From Streptococcus australis (GTDB lineage: Bacteria; Bacillota; Bacilli; Lactobacillales; Streptococcaceae), in NCBI RefSeq assembly GCF_901543175.1, contig NZ_LR594040.1, forward strand, positions 1,426,001 to 1,490,000: DNA of 64,000 nt. The letters are read 5' to 3'. The position numbers were made by a program, and so were the translations under genes. Position 1 is the first letter of the stretch, and each line of letters starts with the position of its first letter. The notes under the pieces were generated by a model. It made no database searches, was not told the origin of the DNA, and worked only from the letters and a program-made list of their open reading frames with translations. Shown in pieces: positions 43,966-62,059 of the stretch.

Positions 43966-44625
43966 ATGATTGATCTTTATTTTTTTCTTGTCGGGAGCAT
44001 TCTCGCTTCTTTTCTAGGTTTGGTCATTGACCGTTTCCCTGAGCAATCCATTATCCGACCGGCTAGTCACTGCGATTCCTGTCAGACTCGCTTGCGTCCG
44101 CTAGATTTGATTCCTATCCTCTCTCAGGTCTTTCATCGCTTTCGCTGTCGCTACTGTAAGGCTCCTTATCCTTTCTGGTATGCCCTCTTTGAACTGGGCT
44201 TGGGATTCCTCTTTCTGGCTTGGGCTTGGGGATTTCTTTCCTCGGGACAAGTCATCCTGATAACTACTGGCTTGACCTTGGGCATCTATGACTTGCGCCA
44301 TCAGGAATATCCCTTACTAGTCTGGCTAACGTTCCACCTAATCCTCATGGCTTTCTGTGGTTGGAATCTGGTCATGATTTTCTTCCTTATCCTTGGAATT
44401 TTTGCTCATTTTATCGATATCCGTATAGGAGCAGGTGATTTTCTTTTTCTATCATCTTGTGCACTCGTCTTTAGTGTGACAGAGTTGCTGATTTTGATTC
44501 AGTTTGCTTCTGCGACGGGGATTCTTACCTTTCTCCTCCAAAAGAAAAAGGAAAGACTCCCTTTCGTGCCTTTCCTCTTACTTGCTGCTTGTTTGATTAT
44601 TTTTGGTAAGCTACTGCTTGTTTGA
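43966..44625 (+). CDS. cclA: Type IV prepilin peptidase of the competence system
   Basis: A 219-residue membrane aspartic protease (A24 family; ComC/PilD-like) that cleaves and methylates prepilin-like ComG proteins needed for DNA uptake. Two CxxC pairs (CDSCQ near residue 36, CRYCK near 59) form the zinc-binding loop, and the catalytic Asps are in [10 protein letters not shown] near 107 and GAGDF near 156. Eight or so membrane segments. Induced by sigma-X through the TACGAATA box. There is no ribosome site between promoter and ATG. The 3' end overlaps trpA on the other strand by 29 bases. Confidence 0.92.
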
Positions 44626-45373
44626 TAAAGTCCTCAATCGGCTCTCCTTGGTGGAGAGCTTTTACAATTTTTGAACCGACGATAACTCCATCTGACACCG
44701 CATTGAAGCGTTCGACATCGGCTTGACTAGATACACCAAAACCTGTCAAGACTGGGATGTCCGCTACTTGATGCAATTGTGCCAAGTGCTTGTCCAAGTC
44801 TGCACGGTAATTTCCTGACTTCCCTGTCACCCCATTGATAGCAACGGCATAGACAAAGCCTTCCGCTCCCTTGATCAACTCTTTCTGACGTTCAAGTCCT
44901 GTGGTCAAGCTCACTAAAGGAATCAAGGCAATATCTGTGTCTACCAAAAAGGGCTCTACAAAGTTGGCATGTTCATGAGGCAGGTCTGGGATAATCAAGC
45001 CCTTGACCGCTGTATCAGCTAGATCTTTGACAAATTTCTCCACACCGTACTGAAAGAGGGGGTTGAAGTAGGTCATGATGACCAGCGGAACCTCTGTTTG
45101 AATGGTTTTCAAGGTTTCAACCAAAGCCTGGGTAGAAGTCCCATGAGCTAGACTGCGCAAGCCTGCTTCTTCGATCACAGGTCCATCTGCAACAGGGTCT
45201 GAAAAGGGAATACCCACTTCAATAGCTGAGACACCCAAATCTTCTAAAAAGTGGATAGTTTCAGCGAGACCATCCAGACCTTTCTCATGGTCTCCAGCCA
45301 TGATATAGGGAACGAAAATTCCTTTTCCAGCTGCTTTGATAGCGTTCAATTTTTCTGTTAGTGTCTTAGGCAT
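44597..45373 (-). CDS. trpA: Tryptophan synthase alpha chain
   Basis: A 258-residue TIM-barrel subunit that cleaves indole-3-glycerol phosphate to indole. The catalytic Glu is in [16 protein letters not shown] near residue 52 and the second carboxylate in LIIPDLPHE near 130; the phosphate site is [10 protein letters not shown] near 215. ATG 45373 overlaps trpB; eight further upstream codons are open. It is the last gene of trpEGDCFBA, and its stop lies inside the convergent prepilin peptidase gene. No terminator is seen. Confidence 0.96.
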
Positions 45374-46589
45374 GGGCTTCTCCCTTCTTTGCTGCATCTG
45401 CTTCCAAGCGGTCTTTGACTTGAACTACATCCTTGTCCCCACGACCGGATAGGCAGACAATCATTGACTTGTCTGGACCAAGTTCTTTGGCCAATTTCAC
45501 TGCAAAGGCGATAGCGTGGCTAGATTCCAAGGCTGGGATAATCCCTTCCACACGAGACAAGAGCTGGAATCCTTCCAAGGCTTCCTCATCTGTCACGGGG
45601 ACATAGCTGGCACGTTTGATATCGTGGTAGTGAGAATGTTCTGGACCGATACCAGGATAGTCCAAACCTGCTGAGATAGAGAAAGCTTCAAGAATTTGAC
45701 CATGAGCATCTTGAAGCACATCCATGAGAGAACCATGGAGGACACCTGGACGTCCCTTGGTCAAGGTCGCTGCGTGATGCTCTGTATCCACACCAAGTCC
45801 TGCTGCCTCAGCCCCATACATAGCTACAGACTCATCTTCTACAAATGGATGGAAGAGACCGATAGCATTAGAACCACCACCAACACAAGCTACTAGGACA
45901 TCTGGCAAATCTTTACCTGTCAAGTCACGGTACTGTTGTTTAGCCTCTCGACCGATGACACTTTGGAAGTCACGAACGATTTCTGGGAAAGGATGAGGCC
46001 CCAAGGCAGAACCAAGGATATAGTGGGTATCATCGATATTTGCCACCCATGAACGAAGGGCTGCATTGACCGCATCCTTGAGCACGCGCGAACCATCTGT
46101 CACGGCCTCAACCTTAGCTCCCAAAAGCTCCATACGAAAGACATTAAGGGCTTGGCGTTTGACATCTTCCTCACCCATGTAGATGGTACATTCCATGTTA
46201 AAGAGGGCCGCAGCTGTTGCAGTTGCTACACCGTGCTGACCAGCACCTGTTTCAGCGATAATTTTCTTTTTGCCCATGCGTTTAGCCAGAAGAACTTGTC
46301 CCAAGGCATTGTTAATCTTGTGGGCCCCTGTATGGTTGAGGTCTTCACGCTTGAGATAAATCTTAGCTCCACCGATATGCTGGGTCAAGTTTTTTGCGTA
46401 GTAAAGGGGAGTTTCACGTCCTACATACTGGCGTAAGAGCTGGTTTAATTCCTCTTGGAAACTTGGGTCTGCCTGACTTTCACGGTAAGCCTTCTCCAAC
46501 TCCAAAACTGCTGTCATCAATGTTTCTGGGACAAAACGTCCACCGAATTTTCCGTAAAATCCATCTTTATTTGGTTCTTGATATGCCAT
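45366..46589 (-). CDS. trpB: Tryptophan synthase beta chain (operon copy)
   Basis: A 407-residue PLP enzyme joining indole to serine. The PLP lysine lies in [14 protein letters not shown] near residue 96, the carboxylate-binding loop is ETGAGQHG near 119 and the phosphate loop is [10 protein letters not shown] near 240. It begins [14 protein letters not shown]. It overlaps trpA by eight bases and trpF by 23. This is the standard partner of TrpA, while a second beta chain lies upstream of trpE. Confidence 0.97.
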
Positions 46590-47166
46590 TCTTTACCCTC
46601 TCTATAAATCTTCTAATCTTTTCCTGATCTTTTTGTCCATCTGTCTCCACTCCGCTCGATACATCTACTGCATAGGGAGTAAAGTGTCGAATTGCTTTTG
46701 CTACATTGTCTTCCTTAAGGCCGCCTGCGATAAAGAAGGGCTGAGTTAATCCAGTCGTATCCAGTTGACCCCAGTCAAAGGTCTGACCACTCCCAGCAAC
46801 AGGGGCATCAAAGAGTAGATAGTCTGCCTGAGAATTAGGCACATGACCATTTCCATCCACTTGCACAGCCTGAATGCTGGCACAAGGTAAATCCTCAAAC
46901 AAATCATTCCCTACCTGACCATGAACTTGAATCAAGTCCAAGCCAACTTTTTCAATCGCTTCTAGCAGTTGAGCTCGACTTGGTGAAACAAATACACCAA
47001 CCTTTTTAACAGTAGCAGGAGTAGTCTTTGCCAGCTCAGCAGCCTGTTCTAAGGTCACCTGTCTCTTACTAGGTGCGAAGACAAAACCGATGTAGTCTGC
47101 TCCTGCTGACACAGCTGTTTCCACCGCTTCTTTGGTTGATAATCCGCAAATTTTAACCTTTGTCAA
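46567..47166 (-). CDS. trpF: Phosphoribosylanthranilate isomerase
   Basis: A 199-residue TIM-barrel isomerase. The catalytic Cys is in [10 protein letters not shown] near residue 7 and the catalytic Asp in LIQVHGQ and [10 protein letters not shown] near 125; the phosphate site is [10 protein letters not shown] near 152 and VDVSSGVE near 173. It overlaps the upstream trpC by 14 bases. Separate TrpC and TrpF, as here, is normal in Firmicutes. Confidence 0.95.
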
Positions 47167-47920
47167 TCTGTAACTCCTTGATTCTCTGGGCTATATCTTC
47201 TGCCTGCATGAGAGCTGTCCCAACTAAAATTCCGTTAAAGTATGGTGCTACTCGTTCCGCATCCTGCCCTGTGAAAATAGCAGATTCAGAAATGTACAAG
47301 CAATCATCCTTGAAGTATTGTGCCAAGTCTACACTGGTCTGCAAGTCGACTTCAAAGGTTGTCAAATTGCGATTGTTAACACCGATAATTTGAGCTCCAA
47401 GGCGGTGAGCAACTTCCAGTTCAGCAAGATTATGAGTTTCCACCAAGACTTCCAGACCAAGCTCTGTCGCATAGTCATAAAGTTCCTTGAGACGTTTTTC
47501 TGACAAGGCAGCCACGATGAGCAAGATAACTGTCGCACCAGCATTGCGAGCACGGACGATTTGCTTTTCATCGATGATAAAGTCCTTGTTGAGCGTCGGA
47601 ATGTTTACCTGACTGGAAATCTCCCGCAGATAATCCAAATGCCCTTTAAAGAAAACCTCATCTGTCAAAATCGAAATCATCACTGCGCCGTTTGCTTCAT
47701 AAGTCTGGGCCTGTTGCACAATATCTACATCGAGATTGATATCTCCCAGACTAGGGCTAGCTTTCTTGACTTCTGCAATCACCTGCAAGCGTTCCTGATG
47801 ATTCTTCAAAAATGTTGCTAATCGATAGGTCTGGCGCAAGGGTTGGATTTGCTCCAGCTCCATCTGCTCGACCTCACGCGCCTTCTGCTCCAAGATTCGT
47901 GCTAAAAATTCCTGACTCAT
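47153..47920 (-). CDS. trpC: Indole-3-glycerol phosphate synthase
   Basis: A 255-residue TIM-barrel enzyme. It has [15 protein letters not shown] with the catalytic Lys near residue 52, a Glu/Lys pair in [13 protein letters not shown] near 110, [13 protein letters not shown] near 180 and the phosphate-binding GILVGTALM near 232. Starts four bases inside the trpD stop (ATGA overlap). Confidence 0.96.
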
Positions 47921-48921
47921 TTTTGGTACTCCTGTAACAGTCTAAGTTTTTCAAGGGCCTTGCCACTGACAATCACTTGACGGGCCAAGGCAACTCCTTC
48001 CTTGATACTAGCTACCTTACCATTAGCATAGAAACCAAGACCAGCATTTAAAACTGTAGTTTCCAAGAATGGGCTTGGTTCGTTTTTCAGAACGCTGAGC
48101 AAAATTTCTGCATTTTCCTGAGCGTTTCCTCCTCGAATGTCCTCAATTGCAATGCGTTCCATTCCCAAATCCTCTGGAGTGAAGCTTGACAAGGTGATTT
48201 CGCCATTTTCAAGAAGAGCAATATTGGTTGTTCCATTCAAACCAGCTTCATCCAGTCCTTCTGGTCCAGCAACCACAATGGCACGTTTGCGACCCATATT
48301 TTTCAAAACCTGAGCTGTACTTTCTAGAAGTTCTGGACGACTAATCCCAAGAAGCTGTGTTTCCAAGGCCATTGGATGAATCAGGGGACCAGTCAAGTTC
48401 ATGATAGTTGGAATTCCTAATTCCAAACGAGCTGGCATGATGTATTTCATGGCTGGGTGCATATTTTTGGCAAAGAGAAAGACGATTCCAGTTTTATCAA
48501 AGACCTTACCTAGTTCAGCTGGTTTGAGGTCTAGGTTGATTCCCAAGGTTTGAAGGACGTCTGCCGAACCAGATTTAGAAGATATCGAGCGGTTACCGTG
48601 TTTGGCCATGTGAATACCACCACCAGCCAAGACAAAGGCTGCAGTTGTGGAAATGTTAAAACTGAAAGACTTATCTCCACCTGTACCACAGTTGTCCATA
48701 GCATCATGAATTTCAGTTGGAATGTGTTGGGCATGTCCTCTCATGACTTGGGCAATAGCTGTACGTTCTTCAGGTGTTTCTCCCTTCATCTTAAGGGCCA
48801 AGAGGAGAGAAGCAATCTGCGCTTCTGTTACACGTCCAGTTACGATACGTTCGATGACATCCGTCATTTCCACACCTGATAAATTTTCAAATTTTGCTAA
48901 TTTTTCAATAATCTCTTTCAT
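47917..48921 (-). CDS. trpD: Anthranilate phosphoribosyltransferase
   Basis: A 334-residue enzyme that joins anthranilate to PRPP. Motifs are [18 protein letters not shown] near residue 79 for PRPP binding, [17 protein letters not shown] near 107 and the metal-site DEAGLNGTT near 223. Ten bases separate it from trpG, which is a stand-alone glutaminase rather than a fusion. Confidence 0.96.
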
Positions 48922-48931
48922 ATAGACAACC

Positions 48932-49498
48932 TCACTTTACAACCCTATCGATAAAATTCCGAATAGAAGACAAGCCATCTGGCGTTCCTATACTCTCTGG
49001 ATGGTACTGGAAACCATAAATTGGTAGGTTTTTGTGTTGAATACCCATGATGGCTTGGTCATCAGTCGAACGAGCTGTCACTTCAAAGTCTTCAGGCATT
49101 TCTTCAATCAAGATACTGTGGTAACGCATGACCGGATGACCATCCTCGATTCCTTGATACAGAACAGATGGCGCTTCAAAGTTGATATGGCTCTGTTTCC
49201 CATGCATGACTTTGGGAGCCAAACCTAGTTTACCGCCAAAAACTTCTGCGATAGCTTGATGACCCAAACAAATCCCAAGAATTGGCTTCTTGCCAGCAAA
49301 GTCACGAATCATGTCCTCCATCTTACCAGCATCAACTGGCCAACCGGGACCAGGAGAAAAGACCAGACCATCTGCTTTTTCAGCTTCTTCATACAACTTG
49401 GGATCGTCATTTCTCAAGACCTGAACTTCTGCGAAATTCCCAATGTATTGGGCCAAGTTATAGGTAAAAGAATCATAGTTGTCAATCAATAAAATCAT
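48932..49498 (-). CDS. trpG: Anthranilate synthase component II (glutamine amidotransferase)
   Basis: A 188-residue class I glutamine amidotransferase supplying ammonia to TrpE. The nucleophile Cys is in GICLGHQAI near residue 77 and the His-Glu pair in [13 protein letters not shown] near 168. Its ATG overlaps the trpE stop. In some bacteria this subunit also serves folate synthesis; its place here points to tryptophan. Confidence 0.95.
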
Positions 49499-50856
49499 GG
49501 TCTTAGTTCTCCAATTCTAGTCATAGATTTTGCTTTGTTAATGGTTTCTTGGTATTCGTTTTGGGCGATGGAGTCGTAGACAATCCCTGCCCCAGCCTGT
49601 ACATAGGCTCTTTGATTTTTAAGAATCATGGTTCGGATGGCAATAGCCAAATCCATATCACCCGTCGCAGACAAGTAGCCGATTGCTCCTGCGTACACGC
49701 CCCGTTTTTCCGTTTCCAGTTCATAGATGCGTCTCATAGCCCGAATCTTTGGTGCTCCAGAAACGGTTCCAGCAGGAAGTGTTGATTTCAAGGCATCCAT
49801 GGCAGTAAGTTCTGGAAGCAAACGCCCTTTGACCACGCTGGTCAAATGCATGACATAGCGGAAGAACTCCACTTCCATATACTTGGTGACTTGGACACTT
49901 GCCGTTTCAGAGATGCGGCCAATATCGTTACGTCCCAAGTCTACCAACATCCGATGTTCTGCCGTTTCCTTCTCATCTGAGAGGAGGTCTGTCGCCATAA
50001 CCTTGTCTTCTTCATCCGTGGCCCCTCTTGGTCGCGTCCCTGCAATCGGATTGGTTGTCACGATGCCATTTTTGACAGAAACCAAACTTTCTGGACTGGC
50101 ACCGATGATTTGATAATCCCCAAAATCATAGAAATAGAGGTAATTAGATGGATTGGTCACGCGGAGATTTCTGTAGAAGTCAAATGGATTTCCAGTAATC
50201 TCTGCTGAGAAACGTTGACTGAGCACGCATTGGAACATATCACCATTACGAATCAAGTCACGAGCGGTTTCCACCATTTCCTCAAACTTCTGAGGAGCAA
50301 TGTGCGGTTTGAAGTCCAGCGGAGATAAATCCAAATCTTCAAATTCATTTGGAGCAGGGATGCGTAATTCCTCAAGCACTTGATTCAAGGCTTTTTCCAA
50401 GTCTTCTTGACCGCGCTCACTATAGAGAGCATCCTCGATGACATGGATTTTTTCCTTCTTGTGGTCAAAGACCATGTAGCTCTCATAGACGAAGAAATGC
50501 ATGTCTGGAGTCCCAATTGCATCCTCAGGGATTTGACCAATTTCTTCATAAAGCGAAATCATATCGTAACCAACAAAACCAATAGCTCCTCCACCAAAAG
50601 GTAGGTCTGAATGGTGCTGGCTCTTATGAGTCACTTCATAAAGGAAATCCAAGGGATCACGATCAATCACTTGCCCATTTTGATAAAGAACTCCATTTTC
50701 AAACTGAATCTCAAAAACAGGATTATAGGCTAGGATAGAAAAACGAGCTGTTTCCTTGTCTCTCGGAATACTTTCTAAAATAACCTTGTGTTGCCCCTTT
50801 AGGCGCATATAAGCCAAGATTGGCGATAAAACATCTCCATGAATGATTCGTTCCAT
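49495..50856 (-). CDS. trpE: Anthranilate synthase component I
   Basis: A 453-residue chorismate-using enzyme. The N-terminal domain carries the feedback site segment LESIPRDKETARFSILAYNP near residue 28, in which the LLES motif appears as LES. The catalytic C-terminal half has GDMFQCVLSQRF near 200, IAGTRPRG near 280, DLGRNDIGR near 312 and LPAGTVSGAPKIRAM near 375. ATG 50856 follows GGGAAA; the longer open frame runs into the T-box terminator and is not coding. First gene after T-box 1. Confidence 0.96.
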   Translation of the reverse strand: MERIIHGDVLSPILAYMRLKGQHKVILESIPRDKETARFSILAYNPVFEIQFENGVLYQNGQVIDRDPLDFLYEVTHKSQHHSDLPFGGGAIGFVGYDMISLYEEIGQIPEDAIGTPDMHFFVYESYMVFDHKKEKIHVIEDALYSERGQEDLEKALNQVLEELRIPAPNEFEDLDLSPLDFKPHIAPQKFEEMVETARDLIRNGDMFQCVLSQRFSAEITGNPFDFYRNLRVTNPSNYLYFYDFGDYQIIGASPESLVSVKNGIVTTNPIAGTRPRGATDEEDKVMATDLLSDEKETAEHRMLVDLGRNDIGRISETASVQVTKYMEVEFFRYVMHLTSVVKGRLLPELTAMDALKSTLPAGTVSGAPKIRAMRRIYELETEKRGVYAGAIGYLSATGDMDLAIAIRTMILKNQRAYVQAGAGIVYDSIAQNEYQETINKAKSMTRIGELRP

Positions 50857-50901: not shown

Positions 50902-51255
50902 AAAAAATCCCCACGCAAAATAACTTGCGTGAGGACGAAATTCGCGGTGCCACCTCAATTATAGGATTGTTCCTATCTCTCATTCCTGTCTCATACTCAA
51001 TGAAAATCAAAGAGCAAACTAGGAAGCTAGCCGCAGGCTTTACTTGAGTACGGCAAGGCGAAGCTGACGTGGTTTGAATTTGATTTTCGAAGAGTATCAG
51101 ATACCTCCTGTAACAGGCTGTGCGATAAAGGGCACTCCCTTGAGAATTATGTTTTCTTCTCTCATTTCAGATGGACCCAACCTTACAGCTTTCTCTGCTT
51201 GTTTCCAGCAACCACAAGCTCTCTGTGAGAGAAATGACTGTAATTTTCCCATCTG
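50902..51255 (-). promoter_or_regulatory. Tryptophan T-box riboswitch 1, upstream of trpE, interrupted by a RUP
   Basis: On the minus strand, stem I begins CAGATGG at 51255 and closes with CCATCTG at 51168-51174. The bases just before the closing arm give TGG (51177-51179) as specifier codon, so tRNA-Trp. The T-box core TGGCACCGCG lies at 50943-50952, and the terminator stem with TTTTTT at 50902-50936. A RUP (50994-51096) separates the stem I region from the antiterminator. Stem I starts at the base following the trpB2 stop codon, and no good promoter lies between. Confidence 0.9.
50994..51096. repeat. RUP element, copy 4, inside T-box leader 1
   Basis: A complete RUP with TACTCAATG and TTCGAAGAGTA ends, inserted in the untranslated trpE leader between stem I and the T-box core. 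The antiterminator and terminator elements downstream look intact. Confidence 0.92.
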
Positions 51256-52434
51256 TTAGTTTTTAGCATCTAGGTAGTCTGCAATCGCAGCTACATCCTT
51301 GTCTCCACGACCTGAAACATTGATGATGATAATCTCATCTTTACTTAGTTTCGGTGCACGTTTAACTGCTTCTGCGATAGCGTGCGAACTTTCAATCGCT
51401 GGGATAATCCCTTCTGTCTTGCTGAGGAGGAGCAAGGCTTGAACAGCTTCTTCATCTGTCGCTGCTACATATTCCACGCGACCTGAGTCTTTGAAGTAGG
51501 CGTGTTCTGGGCCAACGCCTGGATAGTCCAAACCAGCTGAGATAGAGTAAACTGGCGCCAGCTCTCCATCTTCCTTAAAGACTGCATAGGTCTTCATTCC
51601 GTCAACAATTCCGACACTACCTTTTGTCATAGTGGCTGCGTGCTTGTCTGTATCAAGTCCATGCCCAGCAGCTTCTACCCCAACCAATTTGACTTCTTCA
51701 TCAGCTACATACTGTGAAAAAGCACCGATGGCATTGGAACCACCACCTACACAGGCAATAACGTAGTCTGGTAAACGACCTTCTTTTTCTAAGATTTGAC
51801 GACGAGATTCTTCACTGATGACCTTTTGGAATTCATGAACAATGGTAGGATAAGGATGAGGACCTACAGCAGATCCCAAAACGTAGAAGGCTTCAAGGTC
51901 ATTCATCCATGCTCCAAAGGCTGCATCAACTGCATCCTTGAGAGTTCGTGTCCCCGTTTCAACTGCGTGCACAGTTGCTCCCATCATCTCCATACGGAAA
52001 ACATTGAGACGTTGACGTTCCACATCTTCTGCTCCCATGTAGACATCACAGGCCATACCAAACTTAGCTGCAGCAGCTGCAGTCGCAACACCGTGCTGAC
52101 CAGCCCCTGTTTCTGCGATCACTCGTTTTTTGCCCATACGTTTGGCAAGAAGAATTTGTCCTAAAACGTTGTTGAGCTTATGAGAACCAAGGTGGTTAAG
52201 GTCTTCGCGCTTGAGATAAATCTTAGCGCCACCTAGATGGTCTGTTAAACTTTCCGCAAAATAAAGCGGTGTTTCGCGACCTGAATAATCCTTCAAGTAA
52301 TGGCGAAATTCTGCCAAAAACTCTGGATCATCCTTGTACTTATCAAAAGTCACTTCCAACTCATCCAACAAAGCCTGAATCGGCTCCGGTACAAAACTAC
52401 CACCAAATTGTCCAAAATAACCTTTAGTTGTCAT
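51256..52434 (-). CDS. trpB2: Second tryptophan synthase beta chain, solitary
   Basis: A 392-residue TrpB paralogue. The PLP lysine is in [14 protein letters not shown] near residue 86, where the operon copy has [15 protein letters not shown] near 109 and [10 protein letters not shown] near 232 are intact, so it should be catalytic. It begins [20 protein letters not shown] 52434 follows AGAGG, and the upstream 37 open codons run into a RUP. It is distinct from the operon TrpB along its length, suggesting transfer or old duplication. It has its own promoter and T-box and no paired trpA. The symbol is only a label for the second copy. Confidence 0.9.
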
Positions 52435-52512
52435 AAAATTTTCCTCTTTCTGTATGAATTCGGCTTTTTGTTTGCTTTTAGTAGTAGGCAAGGAGCTGCA
52501 GATAGAACTCAA

Positions 52513-52615
52513 TACTCTTCGAAAATCAAATTCAAACCACGTCAACGTCGCCTTGCCGTACTCAAGTACAGCCTGCGGCTAGTTTCCTAGTTTGCTCTTT
52601 GATTTTCATTGAGTA
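52513..52615. repeat. RUP element, copy 5, between T-box 2 and trpB2
   Basis: A complete RUP with both ends and the GTACTCAAG core, lying in the trpB2 leader after the T-box terminator. About 55 bases without other signals separate it from the terminator. Confidence 0.92.
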
Positions 52616-52672
52616 TAAGTTCATCAAAGCGACTTAAGGCCCTAATAAAAGATAAACAAAATGACCGAAAGA

Positions 52673-52925
52673 AAAAAGCCCACACACGGAATTCACTTCC
52701 GTGTGAGGGCGTTGGTAACGCGGTGCCACCTCAATTGTAAAGGGACTATTCCCCTTTACATCTCTGCCTTGTCTAACAACAAGTTGCACTGTAAGGTGTG
52801 CGCACCGAATTTTCATTGTTTCAAATTCATTTTTTAAATCAGCCCACTTTCACTACTTCCAACCACCTGTTCACAATCACCACAGGCTCCCTGAAGATCA
52901 AAAATAGTTACTTTTCTGATTTATT
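52673..52925 (-). promoter_or_regulatory. Tryptophan T-box riboswitch 2, upstream of trpB2
   Basis: On the minus strand, stem I opens with AAATCAG at 52916-52922 and closes with CTGATTT at 52836-52842. TGG (52844-52846) precedes the closing arm as specifier codon, again tRNA-Trp. The T-box core TGGCACCGCG is at 52719-52728. The terminator (52673-52710) pairs ACACGGAA with TTCCGTGT inside GCCC/GGGC and ends in TTTTTT. Uncharged tRNA-Trp should let transcription enter trpB2. Confidence 0.92.
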
Positions 52926-52931
52926 GAGAAT

Positions 52932-52960
52932 ATTATAAGTTATTGTTCTATCTTTGTCAA
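52932..52960 (-). promoter_or_regulatory. Consensus promoter of T-box 2 / trpB2
   Basis: On the minus strand TTGACA (52955-52960) and TATAAT (52932-52937) are exactly 17 bases apart, about ten bases before stem I. It is the only strong promoter seen for the whole tryptophan region. Confidence 0.92.
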
Positions 52961-61238: not shown

Positions 61239-61278
61239 AATGACATTAACGCTTTGACGTTCTATTATAGTACCATTT

Positions 61279-61415
61279 TACTTGTTTATGTCGTGAATTG
61301 GCACGACGTTTCTACAAGGTGCCGGAACACCTAACAATGAGTATGTCAGCTGAAGGTATGGTGTTGGCCATGCCTATTTTGGGGACTTACTTAGGGGATT
61401 AAGTAGGTCCTTTTT
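61279..61415 (+). promoter_or_regulatory. Guanine (purine) riboswitch with terminator
   Basis: P1 is TACTT (61279-61283) with GAGTA (61339-61343). P2 TCGTG/CACGA encloses AATTGG, J2/3 is GTTTCTACA, and P3 AGGTG/CACCT encloses CCGGAA; the GG and CC of the two loops can kiss. J3/1 has a C at the position that pairs with the ligand, so guanine or xanthine rather than adenine. The terminator at 61383-61415 pairs GGAC and ACTT with their complements and ends in TTTTT. Confidence 0.9.
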
Positions 61416-61477: not shown

Positions 61478-62059
61478 ATGAAATTATTAGAAGAGCGCAT
61501 CCTTCAGGATGGGCATATCTTGGGTGACAACATCCTTAAGGTAGATTCCTTTTTAACCCATCAAGTTGACTATCGTTTGATGCGGGAAATTGGTAAAGTT
61601 TTTGCAGAAAAATTCGCAACTGCTGGCATTACCAAGGTTGTAACGATTGAAGCTTCAGGGATTGCCCCAGCCGTTTTTACAGCTGAAGCCTTAGATGTTC
61701 CTATGATTTTCGCAAAGAAAGCTAAAAACATCACTATGAACGAAGGCATCTTAACTGCTGAGGTTTACTCCTTTACCAAGCAGGTGATCAGCACGGTTTC
61801 CATCGCTGGGAAATTCCTCTCACCAGAGGACAAGGTCTTGATTATCGATGATTTCCTAGCAAATGGACAAGCTGCCAAAGGCTTGATTCAAATCATCGAA
61901 CAGGCCGGAGCAACAGTCGAAGCGATTGGTATCGTAATTGAAAAATCCTTCCAAGATGGTCGTGATTTACTTGAAAAAGCAGGCTACCCTGTACTATCGC
62001 TCGCTCGCTTGGATCGTTTCGAAAACGATCAGGTCGTATTTAAGGAGGCAGATCTCTAA
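61478..62059 (+). CDS. xpt: Xanthine phosphoribosyltransferase
   Basis: A 193-residue type I phosphoribosyltransferase converting xanthine and PRPP to XMP. The PRPP motif [16 protein letters not shown] is near residue 125, and the N-terminal [12 protein letters not shown] is typical of Xpt. AGGAGG precedes the ATG. The stop shares one base with the pbuX start (TAATG). Under the guanine riboswitch. Confidence 0.96.

Follow-up and report, generated by a model that had tools for sequence, protein, structure and literature searches.

The window, by which we mean the whole 64,000-nucleotide stretch of Streptococcus australis DNA that was analysed, carries on its minus strand a second trpB gene (trpB2) that lies between two tryptophan (Trp) T-boxes, the second of which leads into the trpEGDCFBA operon. 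From the promoter downstream, the features of the locus are:

52932..52960, minus strand: promoter 1, TTGACA-17-TATAAT, 12 of 12 consensus positions
52702..52933, minus strand: Trp T-box 1, specifier UGG at 52846-52844, loop E present (RF00230, 100.1 bits)
52683..52705, minus strand: intrinsic terminator of T-box 1
about 52511..52619, minus strand: RUP element 1, in the leader between T-box 1 and trpB2 (repeat match)
51256..52434, minus strand: trpB2, ATG 52434, stop 51256, 392 aa (TIGR00263, 615.4 bits; cut-off 392.45)
50928..51259, minus strand: Trp T-box 2, specifier UGG at 51179-51177, loop E absent, RUP inside (RF00230, 84.0 bits, E 3.4e-18)
50990..51097, plus strand: RUP element 2, about 108 bp, inside T-box 2 between the stem II region and stem III (repeat match)
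50907..50936, minus strand: intrinsic terminator of T-box 2
49495..50856, minus strand: trpE, ATG 50856 (TIGR00564, 570.8 bits, above cut-off)
48932..49498, minus strand: trpG (TIGR00566, above cut-off)
47917..48921, minus strand: trpD (TIGR01245, above cut-off)
47153..47920, minus strand: trpC (NF001371, above cut-off)
46567..47166, minus strand: trpF (NF002300, above cut-off)
45366..46589, minus strand: trpB of the operon, coding for TrpB1 (TIGR00263, 636 bits)
44612..45343, minus strand: trpA (PF00290 match; the coordinates are the extent of the Pfam match only)

We use the name trpB2 only in the sense of a second trpB. Its product shares 57% identity with the operon TrpB, and membership in TIGR01415, the "TrpB2" clade, was rejected (184.6 bits against a cut-off of 518.85). 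An earlier note on this DNA had described the arrangement, and the searches bore it out: trpB2 is preceded by a consensus promoter (12 of 12) and a UGG T-box (100.1 bits against a gathering score of 93); stem I of the following T-box begins at 51255 in the predicted fold, the base after the trpB2 stop; and this second UGG T-box (84.0 bits; specifier 51179-51177; terminator 50936-50907) stands before trpEGDCFBA. Elsewhere in the window, a purine riboswitch (50.4 bits) was found at 61262-61357 on the plus strand, upstream of an open reading frame at 61478-62059.

T-box 1, with its UGG specifier and terminator, passes the RF00230 gathering score (100.1 vs. 93 bits), whereas T-box 2 of the window, which contains a long insert, stays under it (84.0 vs. 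93 bits; E 3.4e-18) and for that reason is unlisted in a threshold-level Rfam scan. RUP-free second T-boxes scored 94.4-100.5 bits, over the gathering score, in 7 of the 8 tandem loci scanned. By homology, T-box 2 of the window is a T-box, and its low score is probably due to the RUP insert. Compared with the RF00230 model, as the earlier note had proposed, T-box 1 thus qualifies by score, while T-box 2 misses the threshold and qualifies by homology. Covariation was evaluated on structures drawn by hand on one member each, with 24 chosen first T-boxes and 49 of the 72 distinct second T-boxes aligned. T-box 1 showed two-sided changes at 23 of 52 pairs among the 24 chosen homologues, a level reached by none of 500 shuffles. 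Mitis-type T-box 2 is strongly conserved, with 98.9% of cells paired in the 49 sequences, among which no two-sided pair change occurred and shuffles were not beaten, leaving covariation uninformative for this T-box. The strong conservation indicates that mitis-type T-box 2 is a stable variant and not an obvious case of decay.

An AGUA opposite GAA beside the specifier, which we take to be loop E, is present in 139 of 141 first T-boxes and in all 24 second T-boxes of other types, and is missing from all 77 mitis-type second T-boxes, window included. The two exceptions among the first T-boxes are L245 and L246, whose nearest unit has no stem I. Because loop E is absent, tRNA binding by mitis-type T-box 2 may be weak. 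Two pattern searches for the window genome's own tRNA-Trp gene returned 0 matches. In L245, L246 and L177, a complete T-box is followed by a further antiterminator/terminator unit that, judged by eye, has no separate stem I, an arrangement that reads as one sensor with two platforms in tandem.

The repeat inside T-box 2 has 25 matches in the genome, of which 12 are near full length at an identity of at least 90% (query included). The earlier note had overlooked this insertion, together with RUP 1 and the missing loop E. We take the repeat to be RUP on the strength of the description of that element in PMC3049150. RUP is described there as a 107-bp pneumococcal repeat with terminal inverted repeats, present in many copies and folded when transcribed (PMC3049150); the repeat of the window is of the same length class, multicopy and hairpin-forming, and here one copy lies inside a riboswitch linker. 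RUP 2 is inverted relative to RUP 1. A linker that is about 108 nt longer, the rarity of RUP in this place (only the window and L089 among 150 loci, at the same site) and the lack of loop E throughout the 77 mitis-type second T-boxes could mean that T-box 2 was broken by RUP, or that mitis-type T-box 2 is a poor tRNA sensor, with trpE locked at a low level or following T-box 1 alone. We consider this unlikely, since the insert falls between RF00230 model positions 148 and 149, in a variable linker where conserved elements are spared; since RUP 2 by itself folds as a closed hairpin (-28.8 kcal/mol; z -3.6; 0 of 200 shuffles equally stable) that reappears in the predicted fold of the whole T-box 2 leader; since every one of the 77 mitis-type second T-boxes has the specifier string UUGGG; and since the window's downstream trp genes match their families over the full length in a profile search. 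We favor the view that T-box 2 of the window probably still works despite RUP, because the repeat is predicted to fold alone and stem I, stem III, the T-box sequence and the terminator are intact; RUP could also slow or misfold T-box 2. The other locus with this insertion, L089, is identical over the stretch compared to L008 (titled S. pseudopneumoniae 75_SPSE), and the RUP 1 site is shared with L102, which over the stretch compared is identical to L009 (oral taxon 058 F0407). Among mitis-type loci L083-L194, the spacer from the T-box 1 core to trpB2 falls into classes of about 95, 190 or 214 nt and that from trpB2 to trpE into classes of about 297 or 520-708 nt; both spacers seem to have taken up further insertions.

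The 150 trpB2 loci that we read are the matches listed from 284 Streptococcus genomes (242 of them with some match), the window's own included, and 80 named loci overlap this set, so that the two counts are not additive; the best 120 matches of the trpB2 protein search were all near-identical homologues. The comparative search for trpB2 beside trpE in relatives, which the earlier note had put forward, found the order T-box, trpB2, T-box, trpE in 101 of the 150 loci (77 of mitis type and 24 others, window included) and in 59 of the 80 named loci, with S. sanguinis, S. gordonii and S. cristatus among the titles of the latter. The 101 loci rule out a peculiarity of a single genome. The earlier note knew of no such layout described in this genus; the layout itself is common there, and in the accessible parts of the open-licence literature we found no description of a gene between two trp T-boxes. 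A T-box core before trpB2 with no trpE after it within the stretch was seen in 39 of the 150 loci (in L089 the contig ends there); L247 has trpE 45 nt behind trpB2 without T-box 2; and the 9 loci without the T-box core pattern have either a sub-threshold RF00230 match (7 loci) or RF04312 (2 loci).

In a consensus scan with a maximum of 12, promoter 1 scored 12 in 104, 11 in 32 and 10 in 3 of the 139 loci scored. Over the 200 nt before T-box 2 (170 nt at the trpB2 end and 30 nt past the stop), the best site reached 7-9 of 12 in 101 of 101 loci, equal to dinucleotide shuffles, in a scan that is blind to weak, extended -10 or alternative-sigma promoters. Within the reach of this consensus scan, the earlier claim that no good promoter lies between trpB2 and T-box 2 is in line with all 101 loci, none of which has a site above shuffles. 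Promoter-like sites between trpB2 and trpE were rejected as chance, and so was TATACA-18-TAGAAT at 50902-50873, from which a start would fall about 10 nt before the trpE ATG. It could be that trpE has its own promoter, near the trpB2 end or in a repeat, in which case T-box 2 would work alone and trpB2 would form a separate unit. In favour of this, T-box 2 lacks none of its parts; 39 of 101 loci, window included, share a weak 8-of-12 site, CCGAAA-17-TATCAT, at the trpB2 end; and each of the five unlinked trp operons that were read has its own promoter (11 of 12 consensus positions). Of these five operons, L261 and L263 have a T-box core, and the T-box core pattern gave no match in L262, L264 and L265. 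We regard such a promoter as quite improbable given the shuffle-level scores in all 101 loci, the 8 genomes in which trpG (7 genomes) or trpE (L247) stands directly behind trpB2, the promoter retained after loss of trpB2 and the pneumococcal RNA-seq data, the latter two described below. In the trpG cases (mitis-type L082, L097, L112, L136, L142 and L185, and L227), trpG comes right behind trpB2 and the stretch contains no trpE. All seven genomes lack TrpA, and trpG is perhaps kept there for folate synthesis, as pabA. In L227, which is likened to L072 (S. sinensis) by similarity only, a piece of T-box 2 seems by eye to remain. A terminator scan behind trpB2 that was limited to short loops gave a hit in 1 of 150 loci and misses a long-loop hairpin with a T run that can be seen by eye in the parasanguinis-type L195 and L223, so we base no conclusion on this count.

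From 30 genomes picked for having no full trpB2 match, we read 15 mitis-type trpE loci, without L164 and L180, which are trpE fragments, and without L179 and L166-L177, which are more distant; L166-L177 were read separately. Twelve of the 15 retain only scraps or an internal deletion of trpB2, two (L157 and L161) have a broken full-length copy with T-box 1 outside the stretch, and one has no trace of the gene. Both T-boxes could be read in 13 of the 15, and in all 13 promoter 1 is kept at 11 or 12 of 12 after the loss of trpB2, which speaks against a separate trpE promoter, and no site between the T-boxes exceeds 9 of 12. These natural deletions fit a single transcript. The trpB2 scrap between the T-boxes, found in 12 of the 13, measures 31-85 nt, or 62 plus 234 nt in L159; L163 has none.

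These scraps suggest that the tandem T-box pair of the pneumococcal trp operon is what remains after a deletion of trpB2, and we infer that S. pneumoniae is among the genomes that carry them. We assume homology between the pneumococcal T-boxes and T-boxes 1 and 2 of the window. As in the window, trpE of pneumococcus is preceded by two T-boxes (leader order T-box, BOX, T-box), which seem to share a transcript (Croucher et al., 2011; PMC3049150); there the T-boxes are separated by BOX, and the accessible parts of that account do not mention trpB2, whereas in the window trpB2 lies between them. Pneumococcal RNA-seq suggests co-transcription of both T-boxes and BOX, with trpE silent in rich medium, and RT-PCR shows that the BOX between the T-boxes is transcribed (PMC3049150). 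By analogy, these data of others suggest co-transcription at the locus of the window, and they too argue against a separate trpE promoter. Another study reports that in a pnp mutant the trp operon falls along with spd_1604, which it names as the operon's upstream gene (PMC8546594). Elsewhere in Bacillota, trpE is likewise preceded by two Trp T-boxes in series (reviewed in PMC12452182), which are contiguous there; in the window, by contrast, a whole gene stands between them and would be gated by the first only. No trpB2 origin of the pneumococcal T-box pair was found described in the open-licence literature, as far as its text was accessible.

The best-supported reading is that both T-boxes lie on one transcript, on which trpB2 would be gated once and trpE twice. 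It draws on the lack of a promoter above shuffles, the retention of promoter 1 after trpB2 loss, the genomes with trpG or trpE behind trpB2 and the pneumococcal RNA-seq. The parts, their order and conservation, the absence of a consensus second promoter and the natural deletions can be read directly from the sequence. Of the earlier proposal that trpE needs two antitermination events and trpB2 one, it is the arrangement in series on one transcript that gained support (101 of 101 loci, 13 of 13 loci, 8 genomes and the pneumococcal RNA-seq).

With regard to the function of trpB2, 22 of the 150 trpB2 genomes gave no PF00290 (TrpA) match over the cut-off, which is the sense in which we call them TrpA-less (assigned by eye; G133 has one weak match, E 1.7e-4). 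All 22 have a leader before trpB2: a T-box core in 13, a sub-threshold RF00230 match in 7 (E at most 2.2e-13; profile match only) and RF04312 in 2. In three TrpA-less genomes (L248, L251 and L260), the Trp transporter gene trpX lies about 13 to 115 nt behind trpB2. Because trpB2 is kept with a leader in 22 of 22 TrpA-less genomes, TrpB2 is likely a TrpA-independent salvage enzyme that would make tryptophan from indole and serine; the salvage role assigned to trpB2 in the earlier note is supported by the same 22 genomes. Where the window's TrpB1 has an arginine, which by position is Arg179 of S. pneumoniae TrpB, TrpB2 has glycine or alanine in 149 of 150 cases. In the enzymes of Mycobacterium and Salmonella, the counterparts of Arg179 make contact with TrpA, and in the S. 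pneumoniae TrpB structure Arg179 was reported to be too distant for TrpA contact (PMC6608616). Because of that distance, the exchange is a weak hint of TrpA independence. Alternatively, trpB2 could be a redundant paralogue on its way to being lost, with the serial T-boxes a by-product of where it landed and without graded control, as its deletion or breakage in mitis-type genomes that keep the operon might suggest (12 scraps or internal deletions, 2 broken copies and 1 without trace, in 15 loci chosen for having no full match). This appears as improbable to us as a separate trpE promoter, since intact mitis-type copies are 97-100% identical in protein sequence among the matches listed and since, in TrpA-less genomes, the gene is kept with its leader throughout and adjoins trpX in three.

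The RF04312 motif that stands before trpB2 in two TrpA-less genomes was published as the "trpB motif", a riboswitch candidate of unknown ligand found mostly before an amino-acid-like ABC transporter, which in its authors' view might also be an attenuator (PMC11109978). We found it in 59 of 284 Streptococcus genomes, over the cut-off in 34, and at the best 30 loci (L271-L300) it is followed by trpX in 29 and by trpB2 in one. In 31 of 31 streptococcal loci (L271-L300 and L260), a leader frame with Trp codons, TGG CAA nnn TGG, ends 15-18 nt before RF04312. The corresponding peptide pattern WQxW occurred in 5 of 9300 shuffled upstream regions; as the pattern was chosen after the frames had been seen, these single-base shuffles serve as a guide and not as a preset test. 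At 28 other loci of the order (L322-L349, from 246 genomes), where RF04312 precedes trpX in 22, a trpB in 3 and neither within the stretch in 3, a W[QN]xW frame is present in 25 of 28 as opposed to 1 of 2800 shuffles; the presence of at least one Trp codon (28 of 28 loci vs. 523 of 2800 shuffles) is weak evidence, unlike the paired codons. Because the Trp-codon leader frame is found in all 31 streptococcal loci, RF04312 is probably a Trp leader-peptide attenuator.

Immediately upstream of trpX, the genome of the window has a T-box with specifier UGG that scores 104 bits (1150441-1150657 of the contig, locus L301); at this position, other streptococci have RF04312 instead of a T-box. Judged from these loci, trpX and trpB2 each have either a T-box or RF04312, one in place of the other. 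The trpXYZ genes of S. suis are similarly controlled by a Trp T-box, which acts by transcription attenuation and is induced by Trp limitation in reporter assays (PMC9382623); that T-box is single and controls uptake, whereas the operon of the window has two. Replacement of T-boxes by leader peptides in Firmicutes has been proposed for hisS (PMC2965389). In the open-licence literature, to the extent that its text was accessible, a Trp leader peptide at RF04312 or trpX was not found described.

Taken together, we propose that promoter 1 (52960-52932) would drive a single transcript through both Trp T-boxes. Uncharged tRNA-Trp would antiterminate T-box 1 and allow expression of trpB2, and expression of trpEGDCFBA would require antitermination at T-box 2 as well, so that expression of the pathway would be approximately the product of two read-through probabilities. 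By the arithmetic of serial gates, salvage would be induced first and synthesis afterwards. TrpB2 would convert salvaged indole and serine to tryptophan without TrpA, and the RUP in the linker of T-box 2 would form its own hairpin and leave T-box 2 functional. This model as a whole, with serial gates, a TrpA-independent TrpB2 and a tolerated RUP, seems to us reasonably probable. More tentatively, and with somewhat less than an even chance of being correct, the locus may be a graded switch in which the canonical T-box opens salvage at mild uncharging, T-box 2 without loop E is a stricter gate on de novo synthesis, the pneumococcal tandem is a fossil left after trpB2 loss and the RUP hairpin is tolerated in the linker.

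The loci provide a natural allele series for serial T-box control of neighbouring genes: one gate, two gates, a gene between the gates and a gate with a mobile hairpin. They offer an explanation of how the unusual tandem leader of the pneumococcal trp operon arose, and point to streptococcal indole salvage by an enzyme that works without TrpA under the control of a leader. The comparison also suggests an identity for the orphan RF04312, namely a Trp leader-peptide attenuator that stands in the place of a T-box on the same genes.
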